From the NCBI RefSeq assembly GCF_007625205.1, contig NZ_VMNI01000010.1, positions 124,001 through 188,000 of the forward strand: DNA of 64,000 nucleotides, read 5' to 3'. Made by a program: the position numbers and the translations under genes. The notes beneath the pieces were generated by a model. That model did no database searches and was not told the origin of the DNA. It saw only the letters and a list, made by a program, of their open reading frames with translations. The stretch comes from Denitromonas ohlonensis (GTDB taxonomy: Bacteria > Pseudomonadota > Gammaproteobacteria > Burkholderiales > Rhodocyclaceae). Every line of letters begins with the position of its first letter. Within the stretch, counting starts at the first letter, position 1. Shown one piece after another: positions 31,375 to 57,725 of the stretch.

Positions 31375-32491
31375 ACTGAGTGCTCCCTTTGCGCCAGACT
31401 GGGTCTCCCCACCTGGCGAATCCATCCTCGACATCGCAGAGGAGCGCGGCTGGACGCAAGCCGAACTGGCCCTGCGCCTGGGCTACAGCGAAAAACACAT
31501 CAGCCAGCTCATCAACGGCAAAGTCCCGGTGACGGTAGATGCGGCCCAGCGTCTGGAACGTGTGCTCGGCAGCACCATGGATTTCTGGCTCACGCGCGAG
31601 GCCAGCTACCAGAAACACAAGGCGCGCCTGGAAGCGGCCGAACGCCATGTCGGATGGGTGCCCTGGCTGGACGAATTGCCACTCAAGGAGATCATGAGCA
31701 GCGGCGCCATTGCCAAACAGCGCGTGGATGCCAGGAACAAGCCCGGCTTGGTCGAAGCCTGCCTGCGCTTCTTTGGCGTGGCGTCCCCCGACGACTGGCG
31801 CGCCCACTATGGCAGCATGCAGATGGCTTTTCGCCGCAGCCGCGCCGAGCAGTGCGATGTGGGCGCCATCTCGGCCTGGTTGCGTCTGGGTGAGCAGCAA
31901 GCCGAAAGACTCGACGGCCCGAAATACGACAAAGCCCGTTTCGAGAATGCCCTGAACGCCATTCGCGGCCTGACCTGCGAGGCGCCCGACGTCTTTGAGC
32001 CTCAGATGCGCAAGCTCTTGCACGAAGCCGGCGTTCTTCTGGTACTCGTGCCGGCCATTCCCCGCGCCCATGTCAGTGGCGTGGCGCGCTGGCTGGGGCC
32101 GACACGCCCGCTGATCCAGCTCTCGCTCTACGGCAAGACCAACGACAAGTTCTGGTTCGCCTTCTTCCACGAGGCGGCCCACATCCTGCTGCACGCCAAC
32201 AGCCATGCCGACAAGAAATCCATCTTTCTCGACGACCCCAATGCCGCGCATACGGATGACCCGCAGGAGCACGAAGCCAATCAGTGGGCCGGCAACCGCC
32301 TGATTCCGGCGCAATGTGCGCATTTGCTGCCCGGCCTGCGCAGCAAGGCTGCGGTGATCGAGTTTGCCCTGCAGATCGGCGTACATCCCGGCATCGTGGT
32401 CGGGCGTCTGCAGCATGACGGGCTGATCGATCCTTCATGGATGAATGATCTGAAGCAGAGCTTCCGCTTCAAGGAAGCGGCGGATGCGTAG
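31367..32491 (+). CDS. higA: HigA-type antitoxin fused to an IrrE/ImmA-like peptidase domain
   Basis: 374 residues. The N-terminal HTH (about 18-75) reads ILDIAEERGWTQAELALRLGYSEKHISQLINGKVPVTVDAAQRLERVLG, as in HigA. The C-terminal half has the Zn-peptidase motif FFHEAAHILLH (HEAAH at about 268-272) and DDPQEHEANQWAGNRLIP with the third metal ligand Glu. IrrE/ImmA peptidases cut repressors, so this antitoxin may also act as, or respond to, a protease. It overlaps the AlbA_2 gene by 8 bases, tying the toxin-antitoxin pair to the restriction locus. Confidence 0.85.
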   Translation: MTELSAPFAPDWVSPPGESILDIAEERGWTQAELALRLGYSEKHISQLINGKVPVTVDAAQRLERVLGSTMDFWLTREASYQKHKARLEAAERHVGWVPWLDELPLKEIMSSGAIAKQRVDARNKPGLVEACLRFFGVASPDDWRAHYGSMQMAFRRSRAEQCDVGAISAWLRLGEQQAERLDGPKYDKARFENALNAIRGLTCEAPDVFEPQMRKLLHEAGVLLVLVPAIPRAHVSGVARWLGPTRPLIQLSLYGKTNDKFWFAFFHEAAHILLHANSHADKKSIFLDDPNAAHTDDPQEHEANQWAGNRLIPAQCAHLLPGLRSKAAVIEFALQIGVHPGIVVGRLQHDGLIDPSWMNDLKQSFRFKEAADA

Positions 32492-34394
32492 CGCTGCCGA
32501 GCTTTTCGCCGAACTCAACGCGGTAGACGAATCCACCCGAATCGAGGCCAAGCGCGCCAGCGAACTGGGCAAGTCGGTCATGCAAACCGTCATCGCCTTT
32601 GCCAACGAGCCTGGGCTCGATGGCGGTTATCTGTTGCTGGGCGCGGAGTGGTTCACAAACGAAAAAGGCGACACGGTCTATCGCGCTGCGGGCCTTCCCG
32701 ATCCGGACAAGGTGCAGCGCGACCTGGCCAGCCAATGCGCCTCGATGCTCAACGTGGCATTGCGCCCCGAGATGCAACCGGAAACGGTAGACGGACAGAC
32801 CGTGCTGGTCGTGTACGTGCCAGAGGCCGACGTCACGCAAAAGCCCGTCTACCTGAAAGCCACCGGTCTGCCGCGCGGCGCTTATCGTCGTATCGGCTCC
32901 ACCGACCAGCATTGTGTCGATGAAGACCTGTGGGTGCTGCGGGGAGAAAGCCAACCGGCGCACGGCCCCGACCAGAGCATTCTGTCCGATGCAAGACTGG
33001 ACGATCTCGACCCCGCGGCCATCGCCGCCTACCGGCGCGAGCGCGCGCGCATCAATCCGCAGGCCGAAGAGCTCGGCTACGGTGATGAAGACATGCTCGA
33101 GGCGCTCGGTGTGCTGCGCCGCATGGACGGGCACCTGCTGCCCACACTGGCCGGCATCGTGATCTTCGGCAAGCCGCTGGCCCTGCGGCGTCTGTTGCCC
33201 ATGGTACGCATCGACTACATCCGCGTGCCGGGCAACGAATGGGTGGAAGATCCGGAGAACCGCTTCCAGTCCATCGACATTCGCAAGCCGCTGCTGCTGG
33301 CCTTGCCGCAGGCCGAAGCCAGCATCATCGACGAGCTGCCCAAGGGCTTTCGCCTGCCCGAAGGGCAATTGCATAGCGTGCAGGAGCCCGTCCTGCCGCG
33401 CAAGGTGATACGCGAGGCGCTGGCCAACGCGGCCATGCACCGCAACTACCAGCAGCACAGCCCGACGCAGATCATCCGCTACAGCAACCGCATCGAAATC
33501 CGCAACGTCGGCTACTCGCTCAAGGAACCGGCGCAGTTGGGCAGCCCCGGCTCGCGCCTGCGTAACCCCACCATTGCCGCCGTGCTGCACGACCTGCATC
33601 TGGCCGAGGCCAAGGGGACCGGCATCCGTGCCATGCGCCGGCTGGCCGCTGAAGCCGGCTTGCCCCTGCCCGAGTTCCACTCCGACCGGCAGGCCAACGA
33701 GTTCAAGCTCACCCTGTTCCTGCACAATCTGCTCACCGAGGAGGACCACGCCTGGTTGCGTGGCTTCACCGGCAACGGGCTCAGTGCCGAAGAGGCCAAA
33801 GTACTGATTTACGCGCGCGAAACCGGCGCAGTGGATAACACCGCCTGTCGCGACTTCTGCGGGCTGGACACGCTCGCGGCCAGCCTAGTGCTGCGCCGCC
33901 TGCGCGACCGGGGGCTGCTGGAAAAACAGGGCGCCGGCAGTCGCACCTACTACACGCTGAAATCGGCGGACCGCGCCGAAGCCCGTAACGCGACCCAGCG
34001 GGAATTGCCGCTCGAAATCCCCACAAGCCCGGCCGGCGCTGCGGGGGATTCCGGCAATCCCCACAAGCTGGATGAGCAATCCCCACAAGCACTTGTGGGG
34101 ATTCCAGAGGCATTGCGCCTGCGCATCCAGGCCGCCGGCAAGAAACCGCGTCAAGCCACGGTGCGCGAGCTGTTACGCGACCTGTGCGCGCTACGAGCCT
34201 ACACCGCGCAGGAGCTGTGCCAGGTGCTTGGCCGCAGCGACGCCCGCGAACTGGCCCGGCTGCACCTCAAGCCCATGCGCGAAGCCGGCGTGTTGACCCT
34301 GCTGTACCCGGAAAGTGAAAAACACCCGCACCAGGCCTACCGCACCGTGGGCGCTGAAGGCGAACACGAGAAGGAACAAGGCGGCGATGACTGA
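32484..34394 (+). CDS. AlbA_2/Schlafen-type putative DNA-binding ATPase of restriction locus
   Basis: 636 residues. AlbA_2 domain at about 15-140 (ESTRIEAKRASELGKSVMQTVIAFANEPGLDGGYLLLGAE); HATPase-like domain at about 300-410 (VIREALANAAMHRNYQQHSP, RIEIRNVGYSL, AKGTGIRAMRRLAAEAGLPLPEF); then winged-helix-like segments (VLIYARETGAVDNTACRDFCGLDTLAASLVLRRLRDRGLLEKQG). A linker at about 505-545 is coded by DNA carrying four ATCCCCACAAG sites. Such COG2865 proteins often sit among hsd genes. It overlaps higA and hsdS by 8 bases each. Its role in the system is unproven. Confidence 0.82.
   Translation: MRSAAELFAELNAVDESTRIEAKRASELGKSVMQTVIAFANEPGLDGGYLLLGAEWFTNEKGDTVYRAAGLPDPDKVQRDLASQCASMLNVALRPEMQPETVDGQTVLVVYVPEADVTQKPVYLKATGLPRGAYRRIGSTDQHCVDEDLWVLRGESQPAHGPDQSILSDARLDDLDPAAIAAYRRERARINPQAEELGYGDEDMLEALGVLRRMDGHLLPTLAGIVIFGKPLALRRLLPMVRIDYIRVPGNEWVEDPENRFQSIDIRKPLLLALPQAEASIIDELPKGFRLPEGQLHSVQEPVLPRKVIREALANAAMHRNYQQHSPTQIIRYSNRIEIRNVGYSLKEPAQLGSPGSRLRNPTIAAVLHDLHLAEAKGTGIRAMRRLAAEAGLPLPEFHSDRQANEFKLTLFLHNLLTEEDHAWLRGFTGNGLSAEEAKVLIYARETGAVDNTACRDFCGLDTLAASLVLRRLRDRGLLEKQGAGSRTYYTLKSADRAEARNATQRELPLEIPTSPAGAAGDSGNPHKLDEQSPQALVGIPEALRLRIQAAGKKPRQATVRELLRDLCALRAYTAQELCQVLGRSDARELARLHLKPMREAGVLTLLYPESEKHPHQAYRTVGAEGEHEKEQGGDD
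34017..34103. repeat. Cluster of four ATCCCCACAAG sites, two forming a palindrome
   Basis: Direct copies start at 34017, 34057 and 34079, and an inverted copy occupies 34092-34102. The third and fourth make a 12-bp perfect inverted repeat (34078-34089 and 34092-34103) with a 2-base spacer. They fall in different reading frames (IPTS, NPHK, SPQA), so DNA rather than protein sequence is conserved. They lie about 285 bases before the hsdS start. Confidence 0.85.
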
Positions 34395-35514
34395 GCAGAC
34401 CGCGAATCTCAAGCCCGGCTGGAAGATCTGGCGCTTTGATCAAATGGCGACCAACGTCAATGTCCGCATCGACAACCCGTCCGAGTCCGGGATGGCGCAC
34501 TACGTTGGCCTCGAACATCTGGATACCGACTCGTTGAAGATTCGGCGCTGGGGCTCGCCCGATGACGTGGAAGCCACCAAGCTGATGTTTAAGAAGGGCG
34601 ACATCATTTTCGGTCGCCGCCGGGCCTATCAGCGCAAGCTCGGCGTCGCTGAGTTCGATGGGATCTGTTCGGCACATGCGATGGTGCTGCGGGCCAAGCC
34701 TGACGTTGTGCTTCCCGAATTTCTGCCGTTCTTCATGCAGAGCGAGCTGTTCATGAGCCGGGCGGTGGAGATCTCGGTGGGTTCGCTGTCGCCGACGATC
34801 AACTGGAAAACGATGGCGGTGCAGGAGTTCGCGCTGCCGCCGATGGAGGAACAGCGACGGACATTTGATCTTCTGAATGCTGGTTTGGGCACCGTTGACG
34901 AGCTGCAAGCCGCTCTAGACGTGCTCCCGATACTTCGACGTTCGATGGAAATGCGTTTGCTCTCGATGGAGAGCGTACCAAGACAGAGAGTCGGGAACAT
35001 CGCCAAGTTCACCAGCGGTAAGGGAATTCGGGTTTCCGACCTGCCGAAGAGCCCTTCCGATACGAATCCGGTTCCAGTTTTTGGTGGGAACGGGATTTCT
35101 GGGTACACGGACTCGGTTATGGATGGCACAGCAGAGCCAACAGTCGTCATTGGTCGTGTTGGACAGTTTTGCGGAGTCACGTCAATGACGGCGGGGCCTT
35201 GCTGGATTACTGACAACGCGCTCTATCCAGCCAAGATGAGCCGCGATGTTCATCCGGCGTTCCTAGCTATTTGCTTACGCGCTTCAAATCTAAACCGGAG
35301 CAAGCTGGGTGAATATTTGCCGCTGATCACTCAAGAAGTTGTACATAAGATCGAGATTCCCGTGCCGCCCCCATCAGATCAGTGTGCAGCAATTAAGGAG
35401 TTTGCTCAGATAGAAGCGACCGGAACGTCGCTGATGGCTCGGTTATCTAGCACGCGATCTTTTTTGATGCAGGTAGCGAGTCAGGTCCTTGAAGGGGGCG
35501 CGAATGGCATTTAA
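34387..35514 (+). CDS. hsdS: Type I restriction-modification specificity subunit HsdS
   Basis: A 375-residue S subunit with two target-recognition domains. The first half (about 1-195) ends in LPPMEEQRRTFDLLNAGLGTVDELQAALDVLPILRRSM, the conserved helical spacer. The second half (from QRVGNIAKFTSGKGI to the end) closes with VPPPSDQCAAIKEFAQIEATGTSLMARLSS. TRD signatures seen: KKGDIIFGRRRAYQRKLGV and VVIGRVGQFCGVTSMTAGPCWITDNALYP. It sets the DNA sequence recognised by the HsdM/HsdR complex. It overlaps AlbA_2 by 8 bases and hsdR by 11. GC looks lower in the second TRD, as usual for swapped recognition domains. Confidence 0.93.
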   Translation: MTEQTANLKPGWKIWRFDQMATNVNVRIDNPSESGMAHYVGLEHLDTDSLKIRRWGSPDDVEATKLMFKKGDIIFGRRRAYQRKLGVAEFDGICSAHAMVLRAKPDVVLPEFLPFFMQSELFMSRAVEISVGSLSPTINWKTMAVQEFALPPMEEQRRTFDLLNAGLGTVDELQAALDVLPILRRSMEMRLLSMESVPRQRVGNIAKFTSGKGIRVSDLPKSPSDTNPVPVFGGNGISGYTDSVMDGTAEPTVVIGRVGQFCGVTSMTAGPCWITDNALYPAKMSRDVHPAFLAICLRASNLNRSKLGEYLPLITQEVVHKIEIPVPPPSDQCAAIKEFAQIEATGTSLMARLSSTRSFLMQVASQVLEGGANGI

Positions 35515-38500
35515 CGAATCCAACACCGTCGAAGCCTACGTCCGCGATCTGCTCGCCGGCCCGATCAAGGCTGTCCCTGCCAACACCGTCCAGGAACCTC
35601 AAGCCAGCTACGGCCCCGGCCCCAAGGGCATCGGCTGGCGCTACGCGGCACCTGCCGACGTGCCACGGCAGATTCAGGAAGTGCTGGTCGAGCCATGGCT
35701 GCGCGATGCGCTGATCCGCCTGAACCCGGAGATTGCTGCCCAGCCCGACCGCGCCGACGAGGTGCTCTACAAGCTGCGTGCCATCGTGCTGTCGGTGCGC
35801 TCGGATGGCCTGATCCGCGCCAACGAGGAAATGACCGCCTGGATGCGCGGCGAGCGCTCGATGCCCTTCGGCCACAACCACGAGCATGTGCCGGTGCGGC
35901 TGATCGACCTCGACGACCTGTCGCAGAACCAGTTCGTCGTCATCCAGCAATTCACCTACCGTGCCGGCCCCACCGAACGCCGTGCCGATTTGGTGTTGCT
36001 GGTGAATGGCCTGCCGGTGGTGCTGATCGAGGCCAAGACGCCGGTCAAGAAGTGCATCAGCTGGGTGGACGGCGCGGTGCAGGTGCATGACGACTACGAA
36101 AAGTTCATCCCCGAGCTGTTCGTCTGCAATGTGTTTTCCGTCGCGACCGAGGGCAAGGCCTACCACTACGGGTCCATCGGCTTGCCGGTCAAGGACTGGG
36201 GGCCGTGGCACCTGGACACGGGAGCTCAGTCGGCACACGCGCAGCACCACCCGCTGAAATCGCTCAAGCTGTCGGCCGAGAGCATGCTACGGCCGAACGT
36301 GGTGCTCGACATCCTGGGCAGTTTCACCCTGTTCGCCACGGACAAGAAGAAGCGGCGCATCAAGATCATCTGCCGCTATCAGCAATACGAGGCCGCAAAT
36401 AAGATTGTCGAGCGGGTGCTGGCGGGCTACCCCAAGAAAGGCCTGATCTGGCACTTCCAGGGTTCGGGCAAGTCGCTGTTGATGGTGTTCGCGGCGCAGA
36501 AGCTGCGCATGCACGCCGGCCTGAGGAACCCCACGGTGCTGATTGTGGTCGACCGCATCGACCTCGATACGCAGATCACCGGCACCTTTACCGGCGCGGA
36601 CATCCCAAACCTGGAAAAGGCCGACACGCGCGAGAAGCTGCAGCAACTGCTGGCGCAGGACGTGCGCAAGATCATCATCACGACGATCTTCAAGTTCGGC
36701 GAGGCTCCCAACGGAAAATCGGGCAGCCTGAACGACCGCAGCAACATCATTGCGCTGGTAGACGAAGCCCATCGCACGCAGGAAGGTGACCTGGGCCGCA
36801 AGATGCGCGAGGCGCTGCCCAATGCCTTCCTGTTCGGCCTGACCGGCACCCCCATCAACCGCGCCGACCGTAACACCTTCTACGCCTTCGGTGCCGACGA
36901 GGACCTGGCCAACGGTCGGGGCTACCTGAGCCGCTACGGCTTCGAGGAATCAATCCGCGATGGCGCCACACTGAAATTGCACTTCGAGCCGCGCCTGATC
37001 GACCTGCACATCGACAAGGCTGCGCTCGACGCTGCCTACAAGGATTTGACCGGCGGCCTGTCGGATCTGGACAAGGACAACCTCGCCAAGACCGCCGCCA
37101 AGATGGCGGTGCTGGTGAAAACGCCCGAGCGCATTCGCAAGATCTGTGAGGACATCGTCGAGCACTTCCAGACCAAGGTGGAGCCGAACGGCTTCAAGGG
37201 TCAGATCGTCACCTTCGATCGTGAGTCCTGCCTGCTGTTCAAGGCCGAGCTGGATAAGCTGCTGCCAGCGGAGGCCACGGACATCGTGATGTCAGTGCAG
37301 GCGGCCGACAAGAAGGACCATCCGGAGTACGCGCCCTATGACCGTTCGCGGGATGAGGAAGAACGGCTGCTCGACCGCTTTCGCGACCCCGCCGACCCAC
37401 TGCAGCTGATCATCGTCACGGCCAAGCTGCTGACCGGCTTCGACGCACCCATCCTGCAGGCGATGTACCTGGACAAACCGCTGCGGGACCACACCCTGCT
37501 GCAGGCGATCTGCCGGGTGAACCGCACCTATTCCGAGCAGAAGACCCACGGCCTGATCGTGGACTACCTCGGCATCTTTGATGATGTAGCGGCGGCGCTC
37601 GAGTTTGACGACCAGAGTGTCAAGCAGGTGGTCAGCAACATCCAGGAGCTGAAGGACAAACTGCCGGAGGCGATGCAGAAGTGCCTGGCCTTCTTTGCCG
37701 GCATCGACCGCAGCCAGCACGGTTACGAGGGCCTGAGCGCAGCGCAGGACTGCCTGCCGAACAGCGAGGTACGCGACAACTTCGCCGCCGAATACAGCGT
37801 GCTCAACAAGATCTGGGAGGCGCTGTCACCCGACACGGTGCTGGGTCCATTCGAGACTGACTACAAGTGGCTGTCGCAGGTGTACCAGTCGGTGCAACCC
37901 TCCAGCGGCCACGGCAAGCTGATCTGGCATTCGCTCGGTGCCAAGACCATCGAGTTGATTCACCAGAACGTGCATGTGGATGCGGTACGCGATGACCTCG
38001 ACACCCTGGTGCTGGACGCCGATCTTCTGGAAGCGGTCCTCTCGACCCCTGACCCGAAGAAGGCCAAAGAGATCGAGATCAAGCTCCAACGCAGGCTGCG
38101 CGGACATGGCGGCAATCCCAAGTTCAAGAAACTGTCTGAACGGCTCGATGCGCTGAAAGACCGCTTCGAGTCCGGGCAAATCAATAGCGTGGAGTTCCTG
38201 AAAGCTTTACTGGAGATCGCCAGGGAAACCCTGCAGGCCGAGAAGGAGGTCCCGCCCGAAGAAGACGAGGATCGCGGCAAGGCGGCGCTGACCGAGTTGT
38301 TCAACGAGGTCAAGACGGCGGAAACGCCCATCATCGTCGAACGCGTGGTCACCGATATCGACGAGATCGTGCGCCTGGTGCGCTTCCCGGGCTGGCAGGG
38401 CACGCAGGCGGGGGAGCGCGAGGTGAAGAAGGCTCTGCGCAAGGCGCTCTTCAAGTACAAGCTGCATGCCGACGAGGAGCTGTTCGAGAAGGCCTACAGC

Positions 38501-38521
38501 TATATCCGGCAGTATTACTAA
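35504..38521 (+). CDS. hsdR: Type I restriction endonuclease/translocase subunit HsdR
   Basis: 1005 residues. N-terminal PD-(D/E)XK nuclease domain with VVLIEAKTPVKK (about 175-185). SF2 translocase: Walker A HFQGSGKSLLMVF (about 318-330), LVDEAHRTQEGD (about 417-428), FGLTGTPINRADRN, LLTGFDAPILQAMYLDKPL and LLQAICRVNRTY (motif VI). Helical C-terminus that binds the methylase core. ATG at 35504 inside the end of hsdS. All motifs are intact, so the restriction activity should work if expressed with M and S. Confidence 0.95.
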   Translation: MAFNESNTVEAYVRDLLAGPIKAVPANTVQEPQASYGPGPKGIGWRYAAPADVPRQIQEVLVEPWLRDALIRLNPEIAAQPDRADEVLYKLRAIVLSVRSDGLIRANEEMTAWMRGERSMPFGHNHEHVPVRLIDLDDLSQNQFVVIQQFTYRAGPTERRADLVLLVNGLPVVLIEAKTPVKKCISWVDGAVQVHDDYEKFIPELFVCNVFSVATEGKAYHYGSIGLPVKDWGPWHLDTGAQSAHAQHHPLKSLKLSAESMLRPNVVLDILGSFTLFATDKKKRRIKIICRYQQYEAANKIVERVLAGYPKKGLIWHFQGSGKSLLMVFAAQKLRMHAGLRNPTVLIVVDRIDLDTQITGTFTGADIPNLEKADTREKLQQLLAQDVRKIIITTIFKFGEAPNGKSGSLNDRSNIIALVDEAHRTQEGDLGRKMREALPNAFLFGLTGTPINRADRNTFYAFGADEDLANGRGYLSRYGFEESIRDGATLKLHFEPRLIDLHIDKAALDAAYKDLTGGLSDLDKDNLAKTAAKMAVLVKTPERIRKICEDIVEHFQTKVEPNGFKGQIVTFDRESCLLFKAELDKLLPAEATDIVMSVQAADKKDHPEYAPYDRSRDEEERLLDRFRDPADPLQLIIVTAKLLTGFDAPILQAMYLDKPLRDHTLLQAICRVNRTYSEQKTHGLIVDYLGIFDDVAAALEFDDQSVKQVVSNIQELKDKLPEAMQKCLAFFAGIDRSQHGYEGLSAAQDCLPNSEVRDNFAAEYSVLNKIWEALSPDTVLGPFETDYKWLSQVYQSVQPSSGHGKLIWHSLGAKTIELIHQNVHVDAVRDDLDTLVLDADLLEAVLSTPDPKKAKEIEIKLQRRLRGHGGNPKFKKLSERLDALKDRFESGQINSVEFLKALLEIARETLQAEKEVPPEEDEDRGKAALTELFNEVKTAETPIIVERVVTDIDEIVRLVRFPGWQGTQAGEREVKKALRKALFKYKLHADEELFEKAYSYIRQYY

Positions 38522-38532: not shown

Positions 38533-38667
38533 ATGAGCACTCAGACAAATAACAGTGCATCGCATGCGACCTGGTTCGTCGGCGCAAGCTACGACGGTAA
38601 CCCCAGCCGTTGTTACGTCTGCTGCTCAAAGACGCTGTATTGCATCAGCCAGGAGATCACTCAATGA
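38533..38667 (+). pseudogene. Short remnant resembling the N-terminus of McrB-like restriction proteins
   Basis: A 44-codon frame reads MSTQTNNSASHATWFVGASY, DGNPSRCYVCCSKTLYCISQ, EITQ. The HATWFVGASYDG start resembles the N-terminal segment of large EVE/McrB-type AAA restriction proteins; what follows is not recognised. The stop overlaps the SIR2 start (ATGA). Either a deletion fused the start of a lost gene to the region before SIR2, or it is a genuine small gene. Similarity is from memory. Confidence 0.4.
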
Positions 38668-39905
38668 CCGTAAGTGTTCACAATCCCGACCAATACATGG
38701 CCAGCCTGCGGCAGATCATTGCCCAGGGGCGCAAGCGGATTGGCCTATTGGTTGGGGCAGGCGCGCCAGCCGGCATCTTCCCGCCCGGTAGCGATAAACC
38801 ATTGATTCCCGCCGTCGCCGGCCTCACCGACATGGTGATGGAAGCGCTGAATGCGGACTATGGCAACGCTCTGGACGCCGTGCGGGCCGAGCTTGACACC
38901 CCGAACATCGAAACGATCCTGTCGCGGGTACGTAGCCTGGCCGGAGTCATTGGAAAGACGAAGGTTCACGACCTGGATGGAGAAGGATACAAAAGGCTGA
39001 GCGAGGCGATCTGCGAACAGATCGGCACTATCGTCAACAGGCCTCTTCACGAGGGGGCTTCGCCGTATACCGAGTTTGTAACGTGGATCAGCGGTACGGG
39101 TCGTGAACATCCAGTGGAAATTTTTACCACCAACTACGACCTGCTGTTCGAGCAGGCGTTGGAGCGTGCACGCGTGCCGTTCTTCGATGGATTCAGTGGT
39201 GCCAGCGAACCATTCTTCGATCCTTCGACGGTTGCCAGCAATGATTTACCAGCGCGCTGGACCCGCTTGTGGAAACTGCATGGATCGCTCGGTTGGGCCG
39301 CCAATGTGAGAGGTGAGGTGGTGCGTACTGGGCGAGCCAATGCAACGCACTTGGTGTTCCCAGAACACCTCAAGTACGACCAGACACAGAAAGCGCCGTA
39401 CGCCGCGCTCTTCGATCGGCTTCGGGCTTTCCTGATGACACCGGACACGCTGTTGGTTGCGACAGGGTTTTCCTTTGCCGATGCGCACATCTCCGCAAGG
39501 ATTGATGAGTGTCTGGCGGCCAACCCCTCGGCCAGCGTCTTCGCATTTCAGTTCAAACCGCTTGATCAGGAGATCCATGCCCGCGATATCGCGGGGCGCC
39601 GCGCCAACATGAGCCTGTATTCCCCAGACAAAGCCATGATCAACGGCATTGCCGCTCCCTGGATGCCGGGAGACCCACCAACGCGAGATTGGGGAGCCAT
39701 TCGTGCCACCTATTGGGGCATTGATGAGAAAAGCGGGACCGCGCAATTCCAACTGGGGCGCTTCGATCGACTTGCGCGATTCTTTGCGTCATCGCGCGCC
39801 GCACAGCATTTTCCTCATGCCGCGCCGGTAGCGGCCCCAGTGGCTGAAGCCGTGGAGTCTGCTCCTCAGGCTGATGGAATTGCTCCTGCGACTGCTACGG
39901 TATGA
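38664..39905 (+). CDS. SIR2-domain NADase of a SIR2-HerA defence pair
   Basis: A 413-residue SIR2-like protein. The NAD-binding site is seen in IGLLVGAGAPAGIFPPG (about 26-42), EIFTTNYDLLFEQAL (about 152-166), LWKLHGSLGW (about 202-211) and LLVATGFSFADAHI. SIR2 proteins paired with HerA kill infected cells by degrading NAD. The stop overlaps the herA start by 4 bases (ATGA), so the pair was made as one unit. Because herA is now broken, this subunit may be inactive, or unregulated but tolerated. The last 40 residues are Ala/Pro-rich and probably disordered. Confidence 0.85.
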   Translation: MTVSVHNPDQYMASLRQIIAQGRKRIGLLVGAGAPAGIFPPGSDKPLIPAVAGLTDMVMEALNADYGNALDAVRAELDTPNIETILSRVRSLAGVIGKTKVHDLDGEGYKRLSEAICEQIGTIVNRPLHEGASPYTEFVTWISGTGREHPVEIFTTNYDLLFEQALERARVPFFDGFSGASEPFFDPSTVASNDLPARWTRLWKLHGSLGWAANVRGEVVRTGRANATHLVFPEHLKYDQTQKAPYAALFDRLRAFLMTPDTLLVATGFSFADAHISARIDECLAANPSASVFAFQFKPLDQEIHARDIAGRRANMSLYSPDKAMINGIAAPWMPGDPPTRDWGAIRATYWGIDEKSGTAQFQLGRFDRLARFFASSRAAQHFPHAAPVAAPVAEAVESAPQADGIAPATATV

Positions 39906-40196
39906 GCACGAAACCAACCCTGTTGGGATACGTGGGAGCAGTGACTGGCGCTGCGGTCAGCGTCAGGCAGTCACCCAGCGTGGCGTCGGGTATCGCAATC
40001 ATTGGAGGCAAAAGCTATCGCATCGGGCAGGTGGGTAGCTTTGTACGCATTCCTCAGGGATACCACGATCTGTACGGCATCGTGGCGGAAGTTGGTGCCA
40101 GCGCGACACCAGAGGCGGCACGTGAGCCCAATGATCGAGGTGATCGTTGGATGACGATCCAACTCGTCGGTGAAATCGTTGGAGCGTCTTTCGAGC

Positions 40197-40206
40197 GCGG
40201 TATCAG
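40197..40206. repeat. 10-bp target site duplication of the IS in herA
   Basis: GCGGTATCAG occurs at 40197-40206, directly before the IS left end, and again at 41477-41486, directly after its right end. Identical 10-base flanks show a simple, fairly recent transposition. Confidence 0.93.
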
Positions 40207-41476
40207 CAGGGCTACCGCACCTTTATGTCATGAGCCCAAGTAGTTCAGCGCGGAACTGATCGGAGGAGGCGGCGAGCAGCCGCTTGGTCTTGATGCTGCC
40301 CTTACGGGTGGCGTTCAAACGGATGAGGTTCATGGTGATATGGCGCACGATAGCAAAGTTGTTGGCTGCGTAGCCGGTGCGCACGCGCGACTGGTCTTCA
40401 TTCAGTTGGACGTCCAGGCACCAGTGCAGCCGATTCTCGATTTCCCAGTGGCTGCGCACCGCGTGCGCGATGCGCGCGGCGTCGGCAGGCAGACTGCTGA
40501 TGTAGTAGCGACACTCGTGGGAGGTGCGCTCGCCCACCTTGCGCAAGCGCTCGACGATCGCGAAGCTGCGCAGGCCCTCCCACTGTTCGGGCTTACTGAG
40601 CCGATCGATGCAGTCGTAGGCCCAGCAGCGGCGCAGTTCGATACGCCCGTGAGCTTTAGTGGTCTGCTCGAAGTAGGACGGCTCCGGCAGCGGCTCGCCC
40701 ACGCCGGCCCGAGCGAGCATGATCGACTCGGAGAGCTTGGGCTGGTTGTCCTTGACGCACAGCACGTAGTCGGCCCCGCGGCTGACGATGGTGCGCGCGA
40801 TCGCCGTCTGGGTCCCCATCGCATCGATGGTGACCACGCAGCCGTCGATCGCCAGCGTCATGAGCAACTCGGGAATGGCCGTGATCTCATTCGATTTCTC
40901 GGCCGTGGCGCGCTGCCCGAGCACGATGCCCAGGCCGGCGACGAAAGCGCTGACCAAGTGCAGCGGCTTGCTCTTGAGCTTCGAGGTCGTGCGTCGGCTC
41001 GCCTTGCCGTCGACGCCGATGATCGTGTCCGTTTCTGCATCGGCCTTCAGCGCCGGAATCACCATGCCCACCCAGCGCCGAAACGCGGCTTCGAAGTGAT
41101 GTGCATCGAGCATCGCAAAGACCCGCTCGAACGTGTCGTGCGACGGGATACCGTGCTCAAGCTGCATGAAGCCGCGCAACCAATCGAGCTTCTCCTTGCC
41201 CCACGCCTCGATGCTGGTGAACTCGTCGGCCCCGCACAACACGGCGCACACCGCCACCGTCAGCAGCTCGGCCAGATCGTGGCGCACTTGACGGCGGCTG
41301 CGAGGATCGGGAATCGACACGAACACTTGTTGCAACGGCGTGACGGCTGTCTTCATGGGAGGCCCAAAAAGACAGTAAGCTACACAAAATATGACAATGT
41401 GAACAGGGGGTGCGTAACTGCATGATTGTTAACGGATTATCTGCATGGGTTATGCATAGTCGGTGCGGCAGCCCTG
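40207..41476 (-). mobile_element. ISAs1-family insertion sequence, 1270 bp
   Basis: Ends are CAGGGCTACCGCAC (left) and the complement of GTGCGGCAGCCCTG (right), that is 13 of 14 bases matching as terminal inverted repeats. It carries one transposase gene filling nearly the whole element and is flanked by 10-bp direct repeats, as typical for this family. Appears complete and potentially active. Confidence 0.93.
40223..41356 (-). CDS. ISAs1-family DDE transposase
   Basis: 377 residues. Start: LLQQVFVSIPDPRSRRQVRH-type N-terminus (here TPLQQVFVSIPDPRSRRQVR) with DUF4338-like helix region, then DDE residues in TDTIIGVDGKASRRT (first Asp), VVTIDAMGTQTAIA (second Asp) and RSHWEIENRLHWCLDV (Glu). 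Frame uninterrupted and normal length. It lies antisense to herA, within the terminal repeats. Confidence 0.95.
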   Translation of the reverse strand: MKTAVTPLQQVFVSIPDPRSRRQVRHDLAELLTVAVCAVLCGADEFTSIEAWGKEKLDWLRGFMQLEHGIPSHDTFERVFAMLDAHHFEAAFRRWVGMVIPALKADAETDTIIGVDGKASRRTTSKLKSKPLHLVSAFVAGLGIVLGQRATAEKSNEITAIPELLMTLAIDGCVVTIDAMGTQTAIARTIVSRGADYVLCVKDNQPKLSESIMLARAGVGEPLPEPSYFEQTTKAHGRIELRRCWAYDCIDRLSKPEQWEGLRSFAIVERLRKVGERTSHECRYYISSLPADAARIAHAVRSHWEIENRLHWCLDVQLNEDQSRVRTGYAANNFAIVRHITMNLIRLNATRKGSIKTKRLLAASSDQFRAELLGLMT

Positions 41477-43221
41477 GCGGTATCAGCCAGTATCCAAATG
41501 TCAGAGACGAAGTCCATCTTGTGACCGAGGAGGACCTTGCAGTCATCTATGGGGCAGAGGATGGCGGGCAAGTGATGATTGGACGCTTGGCGAGCGCTGA
41601 AGGCATTCCTGTTCGGGTCGATCTCGACAAGCTCGTTACACGGCACAGCGCCGTGCTGGGTTCGACAGGGGCCGGAAAATCAACCACGGTAGCCAGTCTG
41701 CTGAGGTCGATTGCATTGGGTGGCGGTGCGGAGGGAAGTACGAACTTTCCTAGTGCGAGGATATTGCTTCTGGATATACACGGAGAATACGGTCGTGCGC
41801 TGAAGTCTGTTTCGACGGTGTTTCGCGTCAACCCGAGCGCGGACGAGCAGCCACTGCACATTCCATTCTGGGCGCTCGATCCGGTGGATTTGCTTTCATT
41901 CCTGATGGGGAAGCTTGACGACAAACCACTGTCGCAAATTCTTGATCGGGTGCTCGACTACAAGACCAAGCTGGTGAATGAGTCGTCGATAGCTGGCCTT
42001 GACGTCAACTCGATGACCGCTGATAGTCCGGTTTCGTTCAGTCTGAAGAAACTCTGGTTTGAACTGCTCGAACCGGAAATCAAGACTTGGGCCGATCAAC
42101 CCCGGACGATTCCAGCGTTGGATGAAGCTGGAGACGCGGCGACGCTGAAGGCTCCTCGATACAGACCGCACGGTGCTGGAGCTACTGCGCCCTTCATCAA
42201 CCAGATCGGGGTGCTTGGTATTCGCCGCCCACTGGATCAAATGCGATCTCGATTGCTGGATCGGCAATACGACTTTCTTCTGCATCCAGGAGCATGGGAA
42301 CCAGACTTAGACGGTAAGTCGGCAAAAGATTTGCCTGCACTTCTGGAAGCATGGCTTGGTCACGATAAAACGGTCACTATTCTCGATCTATCGGGCATTC
42401 CCAGCACAGTAGTTGCCCGTCTGATCGGCGCGATTCTCAAGATCATCTATGAAGGGTTGTTCTGGGGGCGAGAGAAGAGCGAAGGGGGAATTTCGAGGCC
42501 ATTGCTCGTTGTAATGGAAGAGGCACACCGCTATCTCTCAAAAGAGGCGGACGGGCCAGCGCGGTCGATGGTTCAGCGTATCGTGAAGGAAGGCCGCAAA
42601 TTCGGTATTGGCGCCATGGTCGTCAGCCAGCGTCCTTCCGAGGTCGACGAGACCATCCTTTCGCAGTGCGGCACATTCATCGCGCTGCGACTTTCCAACT
42701 CGGCGGATCGAGCGAAAGTACAGGCATCGTTGCCGGATAACCTTGCTGGCGTGGTTGACAGTTTGCCCGTGCTGCGGGTCGGAGAGGCCATAATCACCGG
42801 AGAAGCAGCTCGGCTGCCGATCCGCTGTCGCATTACGCTACCCGACGAAAATAATCGACCGAACAGCGAAGACCCGGCCGTGGCCAAGCGGTGGCAGGGT
42901 GCTCGGTTGCCCGAAAACTACGAACGGGTCGCAGCGGCCTGGCGCGCCCAGAATCCGATATGGACCACATTGCGAGTGCTGCGCACCGCGCTTACCCAAG
43001 AGGAGGTTGAGAACATGGACAGAGAAACCGTCGCTTCGTCGACAGTGATTTCAATCGGCTACGAGCCGAGCAGCAACACGCTTGAGGTCGAGTTCAGGAA
43101 CGGTATCTATCAGTACTACAATGTGCCAGAACCGATTTATCAACAGTTCATGGCATCGGATTCGAAGGGAAAATTTCTGCATGCCTATATCAAACCAGCC
43201 TACCCATGCTCACGGGTGTGA

Positions 43222-44505: not shown

Positions 44506-47472
44506 TCAAGCCAGCGATCCGAGCGGCAGCGACTCGATGCCCCGGGCGCGGTCGATCTTCTCGGCCACCTTGAAGGCCGCCTCCAGCTCGCCGATGCCGT
44601 ACTGCTGCATCAGCTGGAAGCGCTCGGCCTTCTCTTCCGGCTCGGTCTGGGCCAGCGCCAGGTACAGGCTCGGCGGCACCGCGCGGAACAGCACCTCCAT
44701 CGACTTGGACAGGATCACGCCCTCGGTGAACTTGCCGGCCTCCTTGCGCGCGGAGAGCATCAGCGCCTTCTGTGCCGGGTTCAGTTCGCGAAAGCGCGCG
44801 ATCTTCTCTACCTCGTCCGGCGGCATCGAGAGGCAGATCCACCACTCGATCATGTTGAGCATGGGCTCGGCCGCCTTGGGCAGGTCGTCGATGTTCTGCG
44901 TCGCCAGCCAATACCACGCGCCGAGCTTGCGCCACATCTTGGTGATCTTGACCACGTAGGGCGCGAGCAGCGGGTTCCTGGTGATGATGTGGCCTTCGTC
45001 GGTCACGTTGATGATGGGCCGCCCGAGGAACTGGTCGCGCTCGGCGATGTTGTTGACCGTGTTGATCAACGAGATGTACGCGATCGAGAGCTGCGCGTTG
45101 TACCCCTCGCGGGCGAAGGTCGCCAGATCCACGACGGTGATGTCGGCCTCGGGCCAGGGCGTGCCGGGGCGGTCGAACATCTCGCCGTCCACACCCTGGC
45201 AGAACATATCCATGGCATCCGCCATCTCCAGCAGCCGGGTGCGCCGGACCTCCGGCAGGGTCGCATCGCGGGCGCGCTCGCGCAGTGCGTCGCGCACGTT
45301 GCGGGTGAGCACCGTGCGCCGGTCTGCAACACAGCGCTGCGCCGCGTCGAGGATACACTGGCGGATCAGGCTGCGGTCGGCGCGCGTCATGCGCGCTTCT
45401 TCCTTGTCTTCGCCACCGGTGATCATCAGCCGCGCGGTGATCTCCAGCTCGCCCAGCACGTCGCGCTGCTCGTCGCCTTCCTCGTCGCGGTGGGTCGCTT
45501 GCGCGGCGTCGTCCCGGTCCTCGTCCAGGGCGTCGGCATCGAGGGTCTGCACCTGGCTGGGGGTGTCCACCAGGCGCCAGGCGTCGGCGAACGGGGCCAG
45601 GCTCACGCCGGCACCCGGGGCGAGCTTGACCCGATGCACCGTCAGGCCCAGCCGGGTCGCAAAGTCGCCAAACAGGCCGAAGCTGTTGCCCGCCTCGACG
45701 ATGAAGAGGCGCGGCCGGTAGATCGCCGTGATCTGGTTGAGGATGTTGTTGAGGGTGGCGCTCTTGCCCGAGCCGGTAGGGCCGAAGAGGAACAGGTGGG
45801 CGTTCATCTGCCGGTCGAGGCGATTCAATGGATCGAAGGTGATCGGCCCGCCGCCGCGGTTGAAGAAGGTGATGCCGGGATGCCCCGTGCCCTGGCTGCG
45901 GCCCCACACCGGCGCCAGGTTCGCGGCGTGCTGCGCGAACATGAGCTGGGTGTACCACTGGCGCTTGTCCAGGGTCGGGTCGAACACGCAAGGCAGCCAG
46001 CGCAGATAGCTGTTGAGCGGCGCCACCTCGTCTTCTTCGCGCACGGGCTGCAGGCCCGCGTTGAGCATGACGTTGAGGAGCTGCAGGCCGCGGGTGTCGA
46101 GCTGCTGCAGATCGCGCCCGCGCAGGTAGAACGCCAGCGCGCCCCGGTAAAGCTTGTGCGCGCTGCCGATCAGGCCGCGCGCCTGGTGCACATCGTGCCG
46201 GGCCTGCTCCGAGGCGAGGGTCTCGCCGACCGACTTCCTGCTCAGGTGGTTCAGGTGCGCTTCCAGCACGTCCTGCGGCGTAGCGACCAGGGTCAGGCAC
46301 ATCACCGTGTCCTCCGGCATCTGGTCGAACAGCGCATTGACCGCATCGCCGCCCTTGCGGGTCTCGCCGGTGATGTGGCCGGTCGAGGGCGGCATGCGCA
46401 GCCGATCCATCACGATCACCCGATGGGGGAGGCCATCGAAGTGCCAGGTGCCGCTGTCCACGTCCGAACGCGGCTGGCCGAAGAACAGGCGTTGTGCGAA
46501 GTCGCCACTTGCGAGTTCTATTTCCAGCTCAATCTCGTCCGCTTCCTGCGCCTCGGGATAACGGGTCAGCGCGTAGAAGCGCTCCCGATCCTCGGCGCTC
46601 GGGCCAAGCAGGGTCGGGTGGGGGTTGAACCAGCGCAGCAGCCAGTCGTGAATGTCGGCAGCGCCCAGGCGGCGAGCCTTCACGCCCGCATTCGCGAGCC
46701 CACCGGCGAGGCGGTCGCAGATCGTCGTGAGCGCCTGCTCGGGCGACTGGCCACGGCGGGTCGAGGCGGGCGTGGGCGTGCGCCGGTAGACCACCATGCG
46801 CACCCGCCGCACCTGGCCGCGCCATGGCAGGCGTGTCACCGTGGTGTCCTCGAACAGTCCGCCGGGTTTGGCGATGGCGCGCAGGTGATGGGCGAAGAAG
46901 CGCAGGTAGAACGCGCTGAAGGCACTGCCCTGGGCGCGCGGTCGCACGTAGCGCGCGAGCGCCCGCAGATAGCCGTCCCAGCTCGCCTCGTCCTGGGCGT
47001 AGAGCTGGACCACCCAGGGGTTCTCGTCGAGTTCGTCGAAGGAATCCTGCAGCGCATTTTCCAGCGCATCGCGGGCCTGCCACAACCAGGCCATCTCGCG
47101 CCCCTCGGTGCCGATCGGCTGCAACTCGAAGAAGGCTGCGACCGACTGGCCGTCCTCGAGCAGCATGCTCCTGGCGTCGGGCAGGTATTCCACCCAGGGC
47201 AGGAGGTCGGCAAAAGACGGCGCCACATCGTAGAGCGCCTGGGCATCCGCTTCGGTGGCGGGTGTGCGTTGGGGGCTGTCCAGGGCGCTGCCGGGCTCGG
47301 CAATCCCGTGCGCCGCCAGGGCCGACACGTGCCGCGTCCAGGCGTCGGCGGCTGGTGTCTGGGTGGCTGAGGTCTGGGCGGCTGACGTCTCGGTGGCTGG
47401 CGTCTCGGTGGCTGGCGTCTCGGTGCTGGTATGCGCCGCTGCCTTGCGCGTCCAAGGCAAGGTCCAGGCCAT
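44506..47472 (-). CDS. traC: VirB4/TraC-type conjugative transfer ATPase, TIGR03744 (PFL_4706)
   Basis: 988 residues, the main energiser of the mating channel. N-terminal spacer is a Thr/Ala/Glu repeat (ETPATETPATETSAAQTSATQ) that varies between strains in such low-complexity stretches. Walker A in FLFGPTGSGKSATLNNILNQ (about 555-570), Walker B region INVTDEGHIITRNPLLAPYVVKITKMWRKLGAWYWLATQ (about 820-860). DNA repeats of GGTGGCTGGCGTCTC in this spacer give the Thr-rich sequence. The ATG overlaps the stop of the lipoprotein gene. Cytoplasmic side of the inner membrane. Confidence 0.93.
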   Translation of the reverse strand: MAWTLPWTRKAAAHTSTETPATETPATETSAAQTSATQTPAADAWTRHVSALAAHGIAEPGSALDSPQRTPATEADAQALYDVAPSFADLLPWVEYLPDARSMLLEDGQSVAAFFELQPIGTEGREMAWLWQARDALENALQDSFDELDENPWVVQLYAQDEASWDGYLRALARYVRPRAQGSAFSAFYLRFFAHHLRAIAKPGGLFEDTTVTRLPWRGQVRRVRMVVYRRTPTPASTRRGQSPEQALTTICDRLAGGLANAGVKARRLGAADIHDWLLRWFNPHPTLLGPSAEDRERFYALTRYPEAQEADEIELEIELASGDFAQRLFFGQPRSDVDSGTWHFDGLPHRVIVMDRLRMPPSTGHITGETRKGGDAVNALFDQMPEDTVMCLTLVATPQDVLEAHLNHLSRKSVGETLASEQARHDVHQARGLIGSAHKLYRGALAFYLRGRDLQQLDTRGLQLLNVMLNAGLQPVREEDEVAPLNSYLRWLPCVFDPTLDKRQWYTQLMFAQHAANLAPVWGRSQGTGHPGITFFNRGGGPITFDPLNRLDRQMNAHLFLFGPTGSGKSATLNNILNQITAIYRPRLFIVEAGNSFGLFGDFATRLGLTVHRVKLAPGAGVSLAPFADAWRLVDTPSQVQTLDADALDEDRDDAAQATHRDEEGDEQRDVLGELEITARLMITGGEDKEEARMTRADRSLIRQCILDAAQRCVADRRTVLTRNVRDALRERARDATLPEVRRTRLLEMADAMDMFCQGVDGEMFDRPGTPWPEADITVVDLATFAREGYNAQLSIAYISLINTVNNIAERDQFLGRPIINVTDEGHIITRNPLLAPYVVKITKMWRKLGAWYWLATQNIDDLPKAAEPMLNMIEWWICLSMPPDEVEKIARFRELNPAQKALMLSARKEAGKFTEGVILSKSMEVLFRAVPPSLYLALAQTEPEEKAERFQLMQQYGIGELEAAFKVAEKIDRARGIESLPLGSLA

Positions 47473-52958: not shown

Positions 52959-53504
52959 ATGAAGCTCGATGTTCAAGTCAGCGGCAAGACCGTCGCCCAG
53001 CGCTACCGTGAGCGCGACGAGTACGTCTTGAAGTATCAGACTGACACCGATCCGGCCGATTTCGTCAGCCTGACCATGCCGGTGCGTGATGAAACTTGGC
53101 GTTGGCCGCGTGACCTGCACCCGTTCTTCCGCCAGAACTTGCCCGAGGGCTATCTACTGAACATCATCCGCGAAGAGTTCGGGCCTTTGCTCGACGGCAC
53201 GGATCTGTCCTTGCTGGCGGTCGTAGGGGCCTCCGGTATCGGCCGCGTCACGATGACGCCCGAAGGTGGCAAGCCCGGCGTCGAGATGGAGCCCCTGCAG
53301 ATCAACGACCTGCTGACGGCGGACAACACTGCTGGCCTTCACCCCAAAATCGTAGGGCTTACGCGCTGGCGCTCGTTCTTCACCGCGGTTCGTTCGCGCG
53401 GATCTGCCGCCCTGCATCCTACGGTTCGATTGGCGTCGCGACCGGGGTCACCGGGTGAGTTTTGCAGGGCCGACTACTTCTTTATCCGCCCGTCGAGGAC
53501 ATGA
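52959..53504 (+). pseudogene. hipA: hipA truncated after its N-terminal domain
   Basis: The frame starts like HipA: KLDVQVSGKTVAQRYRERDEYVLKYQTDTDPADFVSLTMPVRDETW, LHPFFRQNLPEGYLLNIIREEFG and LLAVVGASGIGRVT. After about residue 125 (NDLLTADNTAG) the homology ends, and 55 unrelated codons lead to a stop that overlaps the 3' end of moaA. The kinase core (about 300 residues) is missing. The break near 53335 marks the left boundary of the perchlorate block. Confidence 0.78.
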
Positions 53505-54453
53505 ACCGGACAACCCGCTCCGGACGCTCCCGGAATTCGTGACGGGCTGGCTTGGCCTGCAGCGCGGCCCGAAAACGCGCCGCGATCTGTTCGTCGTCGC
53601 AGCCCGAGCGCAGCAGCTCGCGGAAATCCACCGCGTCCTCCTGGCCGAGACAAAGGTAGAGCATGCCCTCGACGCTCAGACGGACCCGATTGCAGGTCTC
53701 GCAAAAGTGTTGGGAAATGGGGGTGATGAAGCCTAGCCGATGGCAGCCATCGGGCGACATCAGGTAACGCGCCGGACCGCCGCCCGGCACCATCCCGTCG
53801 ACGAGGCCGAAGCGGGAGCGCAAGCGCTCCCGAAGGGGGCGCAGGTCCACATAGCCGGCGCGCCTGCCTGTATCGCCAACCGGCATCATTTCAATGAACC
53901 TCAAGACGAATCCCCGGGCGCCGCAGTACTCGACCATGGCGTCAATGTCCCCATCGCGCACTTCCGGCAGGACTACCATGTTGATCTTGATGACCTGGAA
54001 GCTCTGTGCCCGCGCCGCTTCCAGTCCGTCCAGGATCTGGGGCAGAACGTCGCGGCCGGTGATCTTGTGCACGCGTTCAGGATCGAGGGAGTCGAGGCTC
54101 ACGTTCAATCGCGTGACGCCGGCGGCTCGAAGCGCGGCCGCATTTTGCTTGAGCCGCGTGCCGTTGGTCGACAAGGAGAGGTCCTCCACGCCAGGTAGTC
54201 GGGCCAGCCGCTGGGCAAGTTCAGGGAGGTTGCGCCTCAGCAGGGGTTCGCCGCCGGTCATCCGGATGCGCTTCACCCCCAATCCCGCGAGCACCGCCAC
54301 GAGACGTTCCAGTTCGTCGAAATTAAGCCAATTCCCGGGTTCCTCGTAGTCCTTGAACCCGGGCGGCATGCAGTAGGAGCAACGCAGGTCGCAACGGTCC
54401 GTCACCGACAAACGAAGGTATTCGACGCGACGCCCCAATCCATCTTCCAACAT
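53482..54453 (-). CDS. moaA: GTP 3',8-cyclase MoaA of the perchlorate island
   Basis: 323 residues. Radical-SAM cluster in VTDRCDLRCSYCMPPG, GGEP in RMTGGEPLLRR, C-terminal second cluster FCETCNRVRLSVEGMLYLCLG, and the closing MSSTGG tail needed for activity (usually double-Gly). It makes the first intermediate of molybdenum cofactor, which PcrA needs. The ATG at 54453 has an excellent SD (AGGGAGGTG). An extra moaA belongs to described perchlorate islands, so it is likely a dedicated copy. Overlaps the hipA remnant tail. Confidence 0.93.
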   Translation of the reverse strand: MLEDGLGRRVEYLRLSVTDRCDLRCSYCMPPGFKDYEEPGNWLNFDELERLVAVLAGLGVKRIRMTGGEPLLRRNLPELAQRLARLPGVEDLSLSTNGTRLKQNAAALRAAGVTRLNVSLDSLDPERVHKITGRDVLPQILDGLEAARAQSFQVIKINMVVLPEVRDGDIDAMVEYCGARGFVLRFIEMMPVGDTGRRAGYVDLRPLRERLRSRFGLVDGMVPGGGPARYLMSPDGCHRLGFITPISQHFCETCNRVRLSVEGMLYLCLGQEDAVDFRELLRSGCDDEQIAARFRAALQAKPARHEFRERPERVVRFMSSTGG

Positions 54454-54484
54454 TTGCACCTCCCTTACCACCCCGTCCGGCACC

Positions 54485-55360
54485 TCAGAACTTCATCGCA
54501 GTGAGGTCGGCCGCGGTGTCGATGCCGAGCTTGTAGCCGAGCGAAACCTGGTGGAAGCGACCGGCGGCGTTGTCGTCGTGGATCGCGAAGCCAAAGTTGT
54601 AAGCCTTGCCTGCCTCGAGCTTGACGTCACCGTCGCCGCCCGTGAACTTGCGCGCAAAGACCACCGACCAGCTGTCGCCATCCAGTTTGCCGTCCGCACT
54701 GACCAGCGCCTTGCCGCCTTCCACCACCCGGGTATCGGCCACATGACCGTCGAAGCCCTTCTTCTCGCCACTGCGCCACTGGACCAGATCGTAGAAGCGG
54801 CCCTCGGCGAGTGAGCCGCCCTTGACGTACTTCTTCTTGGTGTCGGCTGCATTGGGCATGGTGCGCGAGTCGGCATGGCAGCTGGCCCAGCATCCGCTCT
54901 GGTCGGCGAGCTCGACCTTGCCGCCGGATTCGAGCATGAACGCGATCTTGACCGGGTTCTTGTCGTCCATCTTGGCGGCGCCCGACGACTTGGGCTGTTT
55001 CCAGGTAAAGCGCAGGTACAGCGTGTCGCCGTCGTGCGCAGCCTGGACCTTGACCGGGATCGACGAAGCCTTGCCGGCAATCGGGCTGGGTTCGATCTTC
55101 TGCCCGCTCGCCATCTTCTTGCCCATGTCGGCGGTTTCTTCACTGTGACACTCGGCACAGGTTTCGCCCTTCTTCAACCCCCGGGCGCCGCCGTGCTCGG
55201 TACCCTTGGTGATCCACTCCAGCGGCGAAACGCCGGGATGGAACAGGGTGATGTTCTTGGCAGCGACCTTGCTCCAGTCCGCCGGCGCGGCGGCGCCGGC
55301 GCCACCCGCTCCGAGTACCAGCAATGCGCCAGCCACTGCGCTCATGATCGTCTTGTTCAT
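54485..55360 (-). CDS. Ethylbenzene-dehydrogenase-type periplasmic cytochrome c
   Basis: 291 residues with a signal peptide (MSAVAGALLVLGAGGAGAAAP). Heme site 1 is the normal CAECH (in KKGETCAECHSEE); the second is CWASCH with three residues between the Cys (CX3CH). The domain around VKVQAAHDGDTLYLRFTWKQP and DQSGCWASCHADSRTMPNA is of the EB_dh / type II DMSO reductase gamma-subunit class. Probably shuttles electrons between the NapC/NirT protein and the reductase. Located 50 bases after the tetraheme gene. Confidence 0.82.
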   Translation of the reverse strand: MNKTIMSAVAGALLVLGAGGAGAAAPADWSKVAAKNITLFHPGVSPLEWITKGTEHGGARGLKKGETCAECHSEETADMGKKMASGQKIEPSPIAGKASSIPVKVQAAHDGDTLYLRFTWKQPKSSGAAKMDDKNPVKIAFMLESGGKVELADQSGCWASCHADSRTMPNAADTKKKYVKGGSLAEGRFYDLVQWRSGEKKGFDGHVADTRVVEGGKALVSADGKLDGDSWSVVFARKFTGGDGDVKLEAGKAYNFGFAIHDDNAAGRFHQVSLGYKLGIDTAADLTAMKF

Positions 55361-55409
55361 GTTTGATTCTCCATTTGAAACTCAACCAGCCACAGCGGCT
55401 GCGTACCGC

Positions 55410-56015
55410 TCACTCTTCGTCTGCCTCAGTCATGCCTTCGGGCTTGTGATGCGCAATGCCCTTGTGGCAATCGATGCAGGTCATGTTGTCCTCGCGCGCC
55501 GTCTCATGCTGTTTGCGCGCGCGCTGCCTTTGCAGTTCCGAGTTCATGCTCTCCAGACTGTGGCAGTTGCGGCATTCACGCGAGTCGGATACCTTCATCC
55601 GTGCCCACTCGTTGCGCGCCAGCTGCAGACGCTTGGCTTCAAACTTTTCCCGGGTGTCGATGGAGCCGGTGATCTTGCCCCACACCTCCCGCGAGGCCTG
55701 GACCTTGCGGATCATCTTGTGCGTCCAGTCCTTGGGTACATGGCAATCGGAACACACTGCACGCACCCCGGTACGGTTGCTGTAGTGGATCGTTTCCTTG
55801 TATTCCTGATACACGTTGTCTTCCATCTCGTGACACGAAATGCAGAACTTCTCCGTGTTCGTCCATTCCATGACTGTGTTGAAGCCGCCCCAGAACACGA
55901 TGCCCGAGAAGAAACCGGCCACGAGTAGGGTCAGCAAGGTGTACTTAACACGCGACCGGCGCTGAGGCGAGCCGAGCCGGGCCGGTCCGCTGGAGGGGGA
56001 TTCCTTGTCAGTCAC
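55410..56015 (-). CDS. NapC/NirT-family tetraheme quinol dehydrogenase
   Basis: 201 residues. An N-terminal membrane anchor (VKYTLLTLLVAGFFSGIVFWGGF) and four heme motifs: CISCH, CSDCH, CRNCH, CIDCH. NapC/NirT proteins take electrons from quinol and hand them to periplasmic cytochromes; described perchlorate islands carry such a quinol dehydrogenase. GTG start at 56015. Two hairpins lie between it and the cld gene upstream, so it may have its own transcript. Confidence 0.92.
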   Translation of the reverse strand: MTDKESPSSGPARLGSPQRRSRVKYTLLTLLVAGFFSGIVFWGGFNTVMEWTNTEKFCISCHEMEDNVYQEYKETIHYSNRTGVRAVCSDCHVPKDWTHKMIRKVQASREVWGKITGSIDTREKFEAKRLQLARNEWARMKVSDSRECRNCHSLESMNSELQRQRARKQHETAREDNMTCIDCHKGIAHHKPEGMTEADEE

Positions 56016-56050
56016 TTGAGTATCCTGTTTTAGGGGGGCTCCCCCTGTTG

Positions 56051-56133: not shown

Positions 56134-57725
<1,592 letters not shown>

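Follow-up and report, generated by a model that had tools for sequence, protein, structure and literature searches.

Bacterial SIR2-HerA pairs of the kind given the name Nezha join a SIR2-like NADase, in whose domain a conserved Asn and a conserved His are functional, to the ATPase HerA, and the report describing them (PMC11559045) states that NADase activity needs HerA and that deletion of herA abolishes immunity in a Vibrio cholerae homologue. According to a second report (PMC12198126), the NAD pocket of Sir2 opens when HerA binds to the dodecamer that SIR2 forms, and the docking face in HerA-DUF4297 is the HAS domain. Here we analyse a SIR2-HerA pair of Denitromonas ohlonensis in a stretch of 64,000 nucleotides (contig NZ_VMNI01000010.1, positions 124,001 to 188,000; this whole stretch is called the window, and positions are counted from its first base), where herA is interrupted by an insertion sequence (IS) of the ISAs1 family. 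We hold it about 85% probable that a recent insertion has left the pair without a full HerA, most likely off and harmless.

The SIR2 gene, which encodes the NADase effector (38664-39905, forward strand), is uninterrupted, and its start is probably ATG 38664 in preference to TTG 38610 on comparison with the open reading frame (ORF) of a related locus, L003. It carries the SIR2_2 domain (PF13289), scores 591.8 bits with PADLOC model PDLC04094 and finds its best solved chain in 8w9l (E 3.3e-78), with which the motifs FTTNYDLL and LWKLHGS align; on our reading of the sequence, these motifs would contain the conserved Asn and His. The herA gene starts at 39902, so that an ATGA at 39902-39905 forms the 4-base overlap that the initial annotation had described. 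Adjoining SIR2, the N-terminal barrel and the DUF87 ATPase of HerA follow in order on the same strand, as two pieces. The 5' piece (39902-40206, left target copy included) encodes the N-terminal (HAS) barrel, and the 3' piece (41487-43221) encodes the end of the barrel, the ATPase motor with Walker A at 41659 and a C-terminal KTSC domain (43036-43203; PF13619, 71.2 bits, residues 543-598 of the ORF from 41410), with matches to DUF87, HerA_C and KTSC and no stop before 43219. A single PADLOC model, PDLC04105, covers both pieces (positions 7-111 and 108-573), and both align along 8wiv, the best solved chain for HerA (residues 10-108, and residues 107-696 with E 1.4e-158), whose 696 residues are aligned through the KTSC end. 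The entry lists of 8w9l and 8wiv have 8wld, 8woc, 8wod and 8wof in common, and we take both chains to be E. coli Nezha structures.

In gene order, overlap, SIR2_2 domain and a HerA of barrel, DUF87 motor and KTSC end, the window pair is the same as Nezha-type SIR2-HerA, and the identity first proposed for it is borne out by the PADLOC, Pfam and PDB matches. It differs in its place within an integrative and conjugative element (ICE), where a type I restriction gene precedes it, and in its interrupted herA: in place of one uninterrupted HerA chain there is an IS at 40207-41476, and the 5' frame ends at a stop codon at 40241-40243. For comparison we used the best 80 of 321 loci from a SIR2 search of named genomes, giving 81 loci with the window; an uninterrupted HerA frame with KTSC is found in 15 of these 80 relatives (C-terminal ends read by eye). 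More distant SIR2-HerA relatives are carried by plasmids, while phages gave no match to the HerA barrel and viral contigs none to the HerA motor.

The interrupting element is 1270 bp long (40207-41476, reverse strand) and lies between two identical 10-bp target copies, GCGGTATCAG, at 40197-40206 and 41477-41486. Its ends, CAGGGCTACCGCACC and CAGGGCTGCCGCACC (40207-40221 and 41462-41476), are inverted repeats, and it encodes an uninterrupted transposase of 377 aa (40223-41356, reverse strand; PF13808, PF01609) that scores 391.5 bits with NF033564 against a cut-off of 70. Members of the ISAs1 family have inverted ends beginning CAGGG and duplicate 8-10 bp of target; the CAGGG ends, the 10-bp duplication and the transposase score confirm the family first assigned to this element, as the boundaries confirm the reported cut of herA at codon 102. 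The 5' frame runs through 102 native codons and 11 IS-coded residues to its stop. The remainders of (40197-39902) and (41477-41410) on division by 3 are both 1, so the herA frames match on both sides of the IS and, as the initial annotation held, removal of the IS plus one target copy restores the frame. In 80 of 80 relatives the N- and C-terminal HerA pieces form one continuous, in-frame alignment over the site, and the target is not duplicated; the commonest 10-mer in the position of the target copy is GCGGCATCAG, present in 8 of the 80. Since the assembly is a draft, IS ends might have been joined to herA artefactually, but this is scarcely credible given the same 10-bp repeat at both junctions and termini that pair as inverted repeats; a 10-bp repeat also flanks a copy of a related IS (L130).

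The exact, in-phase flanks and the uninterrupted transposase frame could be taken in favour of the proposal that precise excision between the 10-bp repeats acts as a switch, re-activating the system in part of the population. Exact repeats are, however, the default product of transposition, and in-phase flanks are no evidence for a switch because target duplication leaves them by default. No IS-free allele of this strain was seen, most IS seldom excise precisely, and a literature search on precise excision of ISAs1 elements returned nothing on point. We regard a reversible switch as very improbable, and this part of the initial annotation is unsupported.

How the insertion may act can be outlined from the position of the break. 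On this view an ISAs1-family element struck, probably recently, a Nezha-kind pair among PFGI-1-class ICE genes. The break follows HerA codon 102, and a model of the intact L003 HerA, of modest quality with a mean pLDDT of 74.4, puts it in a loop that precedes the final strand of the N-terminal barrel, with strand 96-99 on one side and strand 110-113 on the other. The IS separates the barrel from the ATPase motor, so the two no longer form a single chain and no full HerA can be made, and we therefore infer that there is no working HerA. In studied homologues HerA opens the NAD pocket; SIR2 without it should stay idle, and the pair would most likely be off, harmless rather than toxic. The earlier description of the pair as disabled is a sound inference by analogy, as deletion of herA abolishes immunity in the Vibrio homologue (PMC11559045); intact HerA is lost, and immunity is probably lost with it. 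The window case is nothing out of the ordinary, a known system inactivated by an IS.

The insertion appears to be young. The herA 3' piece is without lesion, with no stop in 580 codons, and dN/dS for the C-terminal part of HerA (window against L003) is 0.033, compared with 0.037 for SIR2 and 0.023-0.069 for the C-terminal part in pairs of relatives (6 of 7 pairs computable), although dS is near saturation, so that these rough ratios say young but not how young. This limit is one of several points that weigh against a recent, silencing insertion, as is the modest quality of the structure model. Amino-acid changes in the C-terminal part of HerA number 25 on the window branch to 11 on the L003 branch with L013 as outgroup, and 17 to 12 with L002 (synonymous changes 85 to 65 and 67 to 73, respectively), and this excess could hint at some relaxation on the window branch. 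The NCBIfam models SIR2_antiphage and HerA_antiphage, which we take to describe other branches, missed their cut-offs (59.3 of 500, 216.9 of 850 and 164.7 of 800 bits, HerA being represented by its 3' piece alone). Finally, the herA 3' frame extends without interruption from 41410 as far as the stop ending at 43221 and has in-frame start codons inside the IS (GTG 41410, ATG 41422 and ATG 41452), from which a motor fragment might be made.

These three starts and the break in a predicted loop would suit a split but working HerA, with the barrel fragment staying with SIR2 and the motor fragment starting inside the IS. We consider this extremely improbable, as the N-terminal piece is without the last predicted barrel strand and 0 of 80 relatives are split at the site. 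No sigma-70-like promoter match was found in 39800-41900 (shuffled sequences gave a mean of 0.7), including any reading out of the IS.

Loss of a working HerA, which we favour for the window, has counterparts elsewhere. HerA is broken in 5 of the 80 relatives (L008, L012, L031, L041 and L047), in two of them at an IS end. In L031, an alphaproteobacterial bin (~5215 to the end), herA homology stops 99 bases before the contig end, at about codon 219, and in L041, Paracoccus laeviglucosivorans (~9747 to the end), 94 bases before it, at about codon 512. From the junction on, the last bases of L031 have matches of up to 98% at numerous plasmid sites; one of these sites lies directly ahead of the istA/istB genes in an IS21 element, and a second has no istA annotated. 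For the last bases of L041 there are matches of up to 90%, to a site directly ahead of the transposase genes in an IS66 element. Both IS ends are viewed from a single side, at a contig end, and insertion and IS-driven deletion are indistinguishable there because the remaining part of herA was not found in either genome. The two loci are like the window in having a complete SIR2 frame (401 aa in L031, 403 aa in L041) and a herA cut by an IS, and unlike it in their IS21-like and IS66-like ends, their contig-end position and the codons at which herA is cut. Counting the window, herA is damaged by IS in 3 of 81 loci, by three IS families at three sites. Since the breaks in L031 and L041 are due to other IS families, IS damage to herA recurs, and a broken herA beside a full SIR2 is therefore a viable state elsewhere. 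These parallel breaks are what is new here, and the recurrence supports the view that loss of herA is tolerated.

The initial annotation had suggested that the IS was tolerated or selected. L031 and L041 lend mild support to such a loss being tolerated or even favoured. Under selection, a system that is costly because it depletes NAD would do better with its activator disarmed when phage pressure is low, IS insertion being one common way of doing so, and the three breaks, each beside a full SIR2 frame, could be taken in its favour. Other decay adds to them: L008 has a frameshift; L047 has frameshifts near the herA start, and its SIR2 is also short; in L012 the HerA C terminus is replaced and KTSC lost at a switch near 9889 to unrelated DNA, the far part of which resembles ethanolamine ammonia-lyase, with no IS seen and no C-terminal HerA remainder found at the locus. 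A same-family genome, G014, retains SIR2 codons 1-44 as a remnant. Yet 3 of 81 may be a background rate, L031 and L041 are one-sided, and L008, L031 and L047 are metagenome bins. Moreover, a SIR2 query with the best 80 of 321 kept favours intact SIR2; because SIR2 was the bait, too few of its breaks are counted, and the figures cannot be read as a preference for herA. SIR2 is short in L044 as well (contig start, early stop). We regard selected loss as doubtful. Quite improbable, in our view, is the further idea that the IS serves as a brake on an abortive system, herA being repeatedly disarmed while SIR2 is kept, so that a cost-free pair could regain its function through excision, or when an intact herA arrives and recombines with it. 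The titles and abstract openings of open-licence papers included none reporting a SIR2-HerA pair switched by an IS.

SIR2 matches were found in 4 of 100 relatives searched besides the genome itself, and the kind present in the window was found in G014 only. There, SIR2 is cut after codon 44 next to a nucleotidyltransferase-like pair (L083 1498-2623 / L122), the genes on its other side presumably being of AbiEi/AbiEii type, which they resemble.

The element itself is probably an unnamed member of the ISAs1 family. It shares the NF033564 transposase, the CAGGG ends and the 10-bp duplication with other members such as the ISPa60-like plasmid copies, and its top-ranked plasmid relative, from Hydrogenophilus, has 61.5% protein identity. 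This draft genome of 40 contigs contains one copy of the IS: no further copies or relics were found there by DNA, by protein or by exact end motif, and the 15-bp end motif has exact matches in the genome at its own two ends only. At the DNA level, 43 of 399 order, 111 of 297 family and 28 of 369 class genomes gave matches, own genome included. Among the matches listed, with at most two candidates scored per genome, none of these genomes had a near copy: full-length matches other than the element itself reached at most 74%, the best in the same family being at 72-74% nucleotide identity, and short pieces matched at up to 96%. Plasmids had no near relative by megablast and phages none, and viral contigs had one relative at 39%. 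Of the related copies, L130 is flanked by an exact 10-bp repeat and L131 and L132 are without one.

The sole copy and the absence of a near one are consistent with insertion in an earlier host or in another copy of the ICE, the pair arriving already broken; this is compatible with a recent insertion that silenced the pair. Other IS copies may be collapsed in the draft, the searches scored two candidates at most per genome, and related full-length elements (72-74%) are present in the same family. We consider prior breakage a serious possibility, somewhat short of an even chance. Arrival of the IS with the ICE is plausible.

The pair is located between a type I restriction set and the ICE conjugation genes. 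The restriction gene hsdR (35489-38521, forward strand) lies directly upstream of SIR2, a neighbour outside the pair, and the gene at 32484-34394, between hsdM and hsdS, encodes a protein that combines a Schlafen AlbA_2 domain with HATPase_c_4. The PFGI-1 class of the ICE is indicated by scores over cut-off for TIGR03760/MobH, TIGR03744, TIGR03752 and TIGR03746, which include a MobH relaxase (13511-15568, reverse strand) and a conjugative ATPase (44506-47472, reverse strand; TIGR03744). No tRNA genes were found in the window. Type I restriction is not a constant partner of such pairs, Hsd being near SIR2 in 1 of 80 loci (L008) by tblastn with the Hsd proteins of the own genome only. Beyond the conjugation genes, the reverse-strand set at 53482-62568 includes a chlorite dismutase (56134-57003), a DMSO-reductase-type II alpha subunit (59596-62568), FeS, cytochrome and NarJ-like subunits, NapC/NirT and a moaA-like gene, and looks to us like a perchlorate- or chlorate-reduction operon.

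In an rpoB comparison with 21 named genomes, 19 of which gave a match, the host groups as a betaproteobacterium closest to Zoogloea, with 82% to a Zoogloea bin and no more than 77% to the others over long matches; no 16S was found. The genome also holds a second, uninterrupted SIR2-HerA pair about 85 kb upstream (C25; L119 6644-9669), within a type I restriction operon (L119 2708-12595) between hsdS and hsdR. It has the same two-gene layout and the same best PADLOC HerA model, PDLC04105, as the window pair, and differs in being only about 29% (SIR2) and 32% (HerA motor) identical to it and in having no KTSC hit. This second pair could soften the loss of the first.

A separate pattern concerns the relatives. 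In three rows of the comparison the DNA of SIR2 plus HerA barrel shows 72-92% identity, whereas the motor and KTSC parts fall into two classes 66-70% apart (L002, L004, L006, L009, L010 and L011 versus the window, L003, L005, L007 and L013), with the switch at HerA codons ~101-183. The trees of these two portions disagree, which suggests that motors may have been exchanged behind a constant, SIR2-docking end of HerA.

In summary, nature has provided in the window a clean knock-out of a defence pair already known to deplete NAD, and 80 relatives are there to compare it with. It leaves existing knowledge of the system unchanged and fits HerA as its activator, because SIR2 without HerA is evidently tolerated. 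Mild interest comes from the recurrence: taken with L031 and L041, herA has been lost to unrelated IS more than once, and the shedding of an activator while its effector is kept becomes a question that can be answered by counting.

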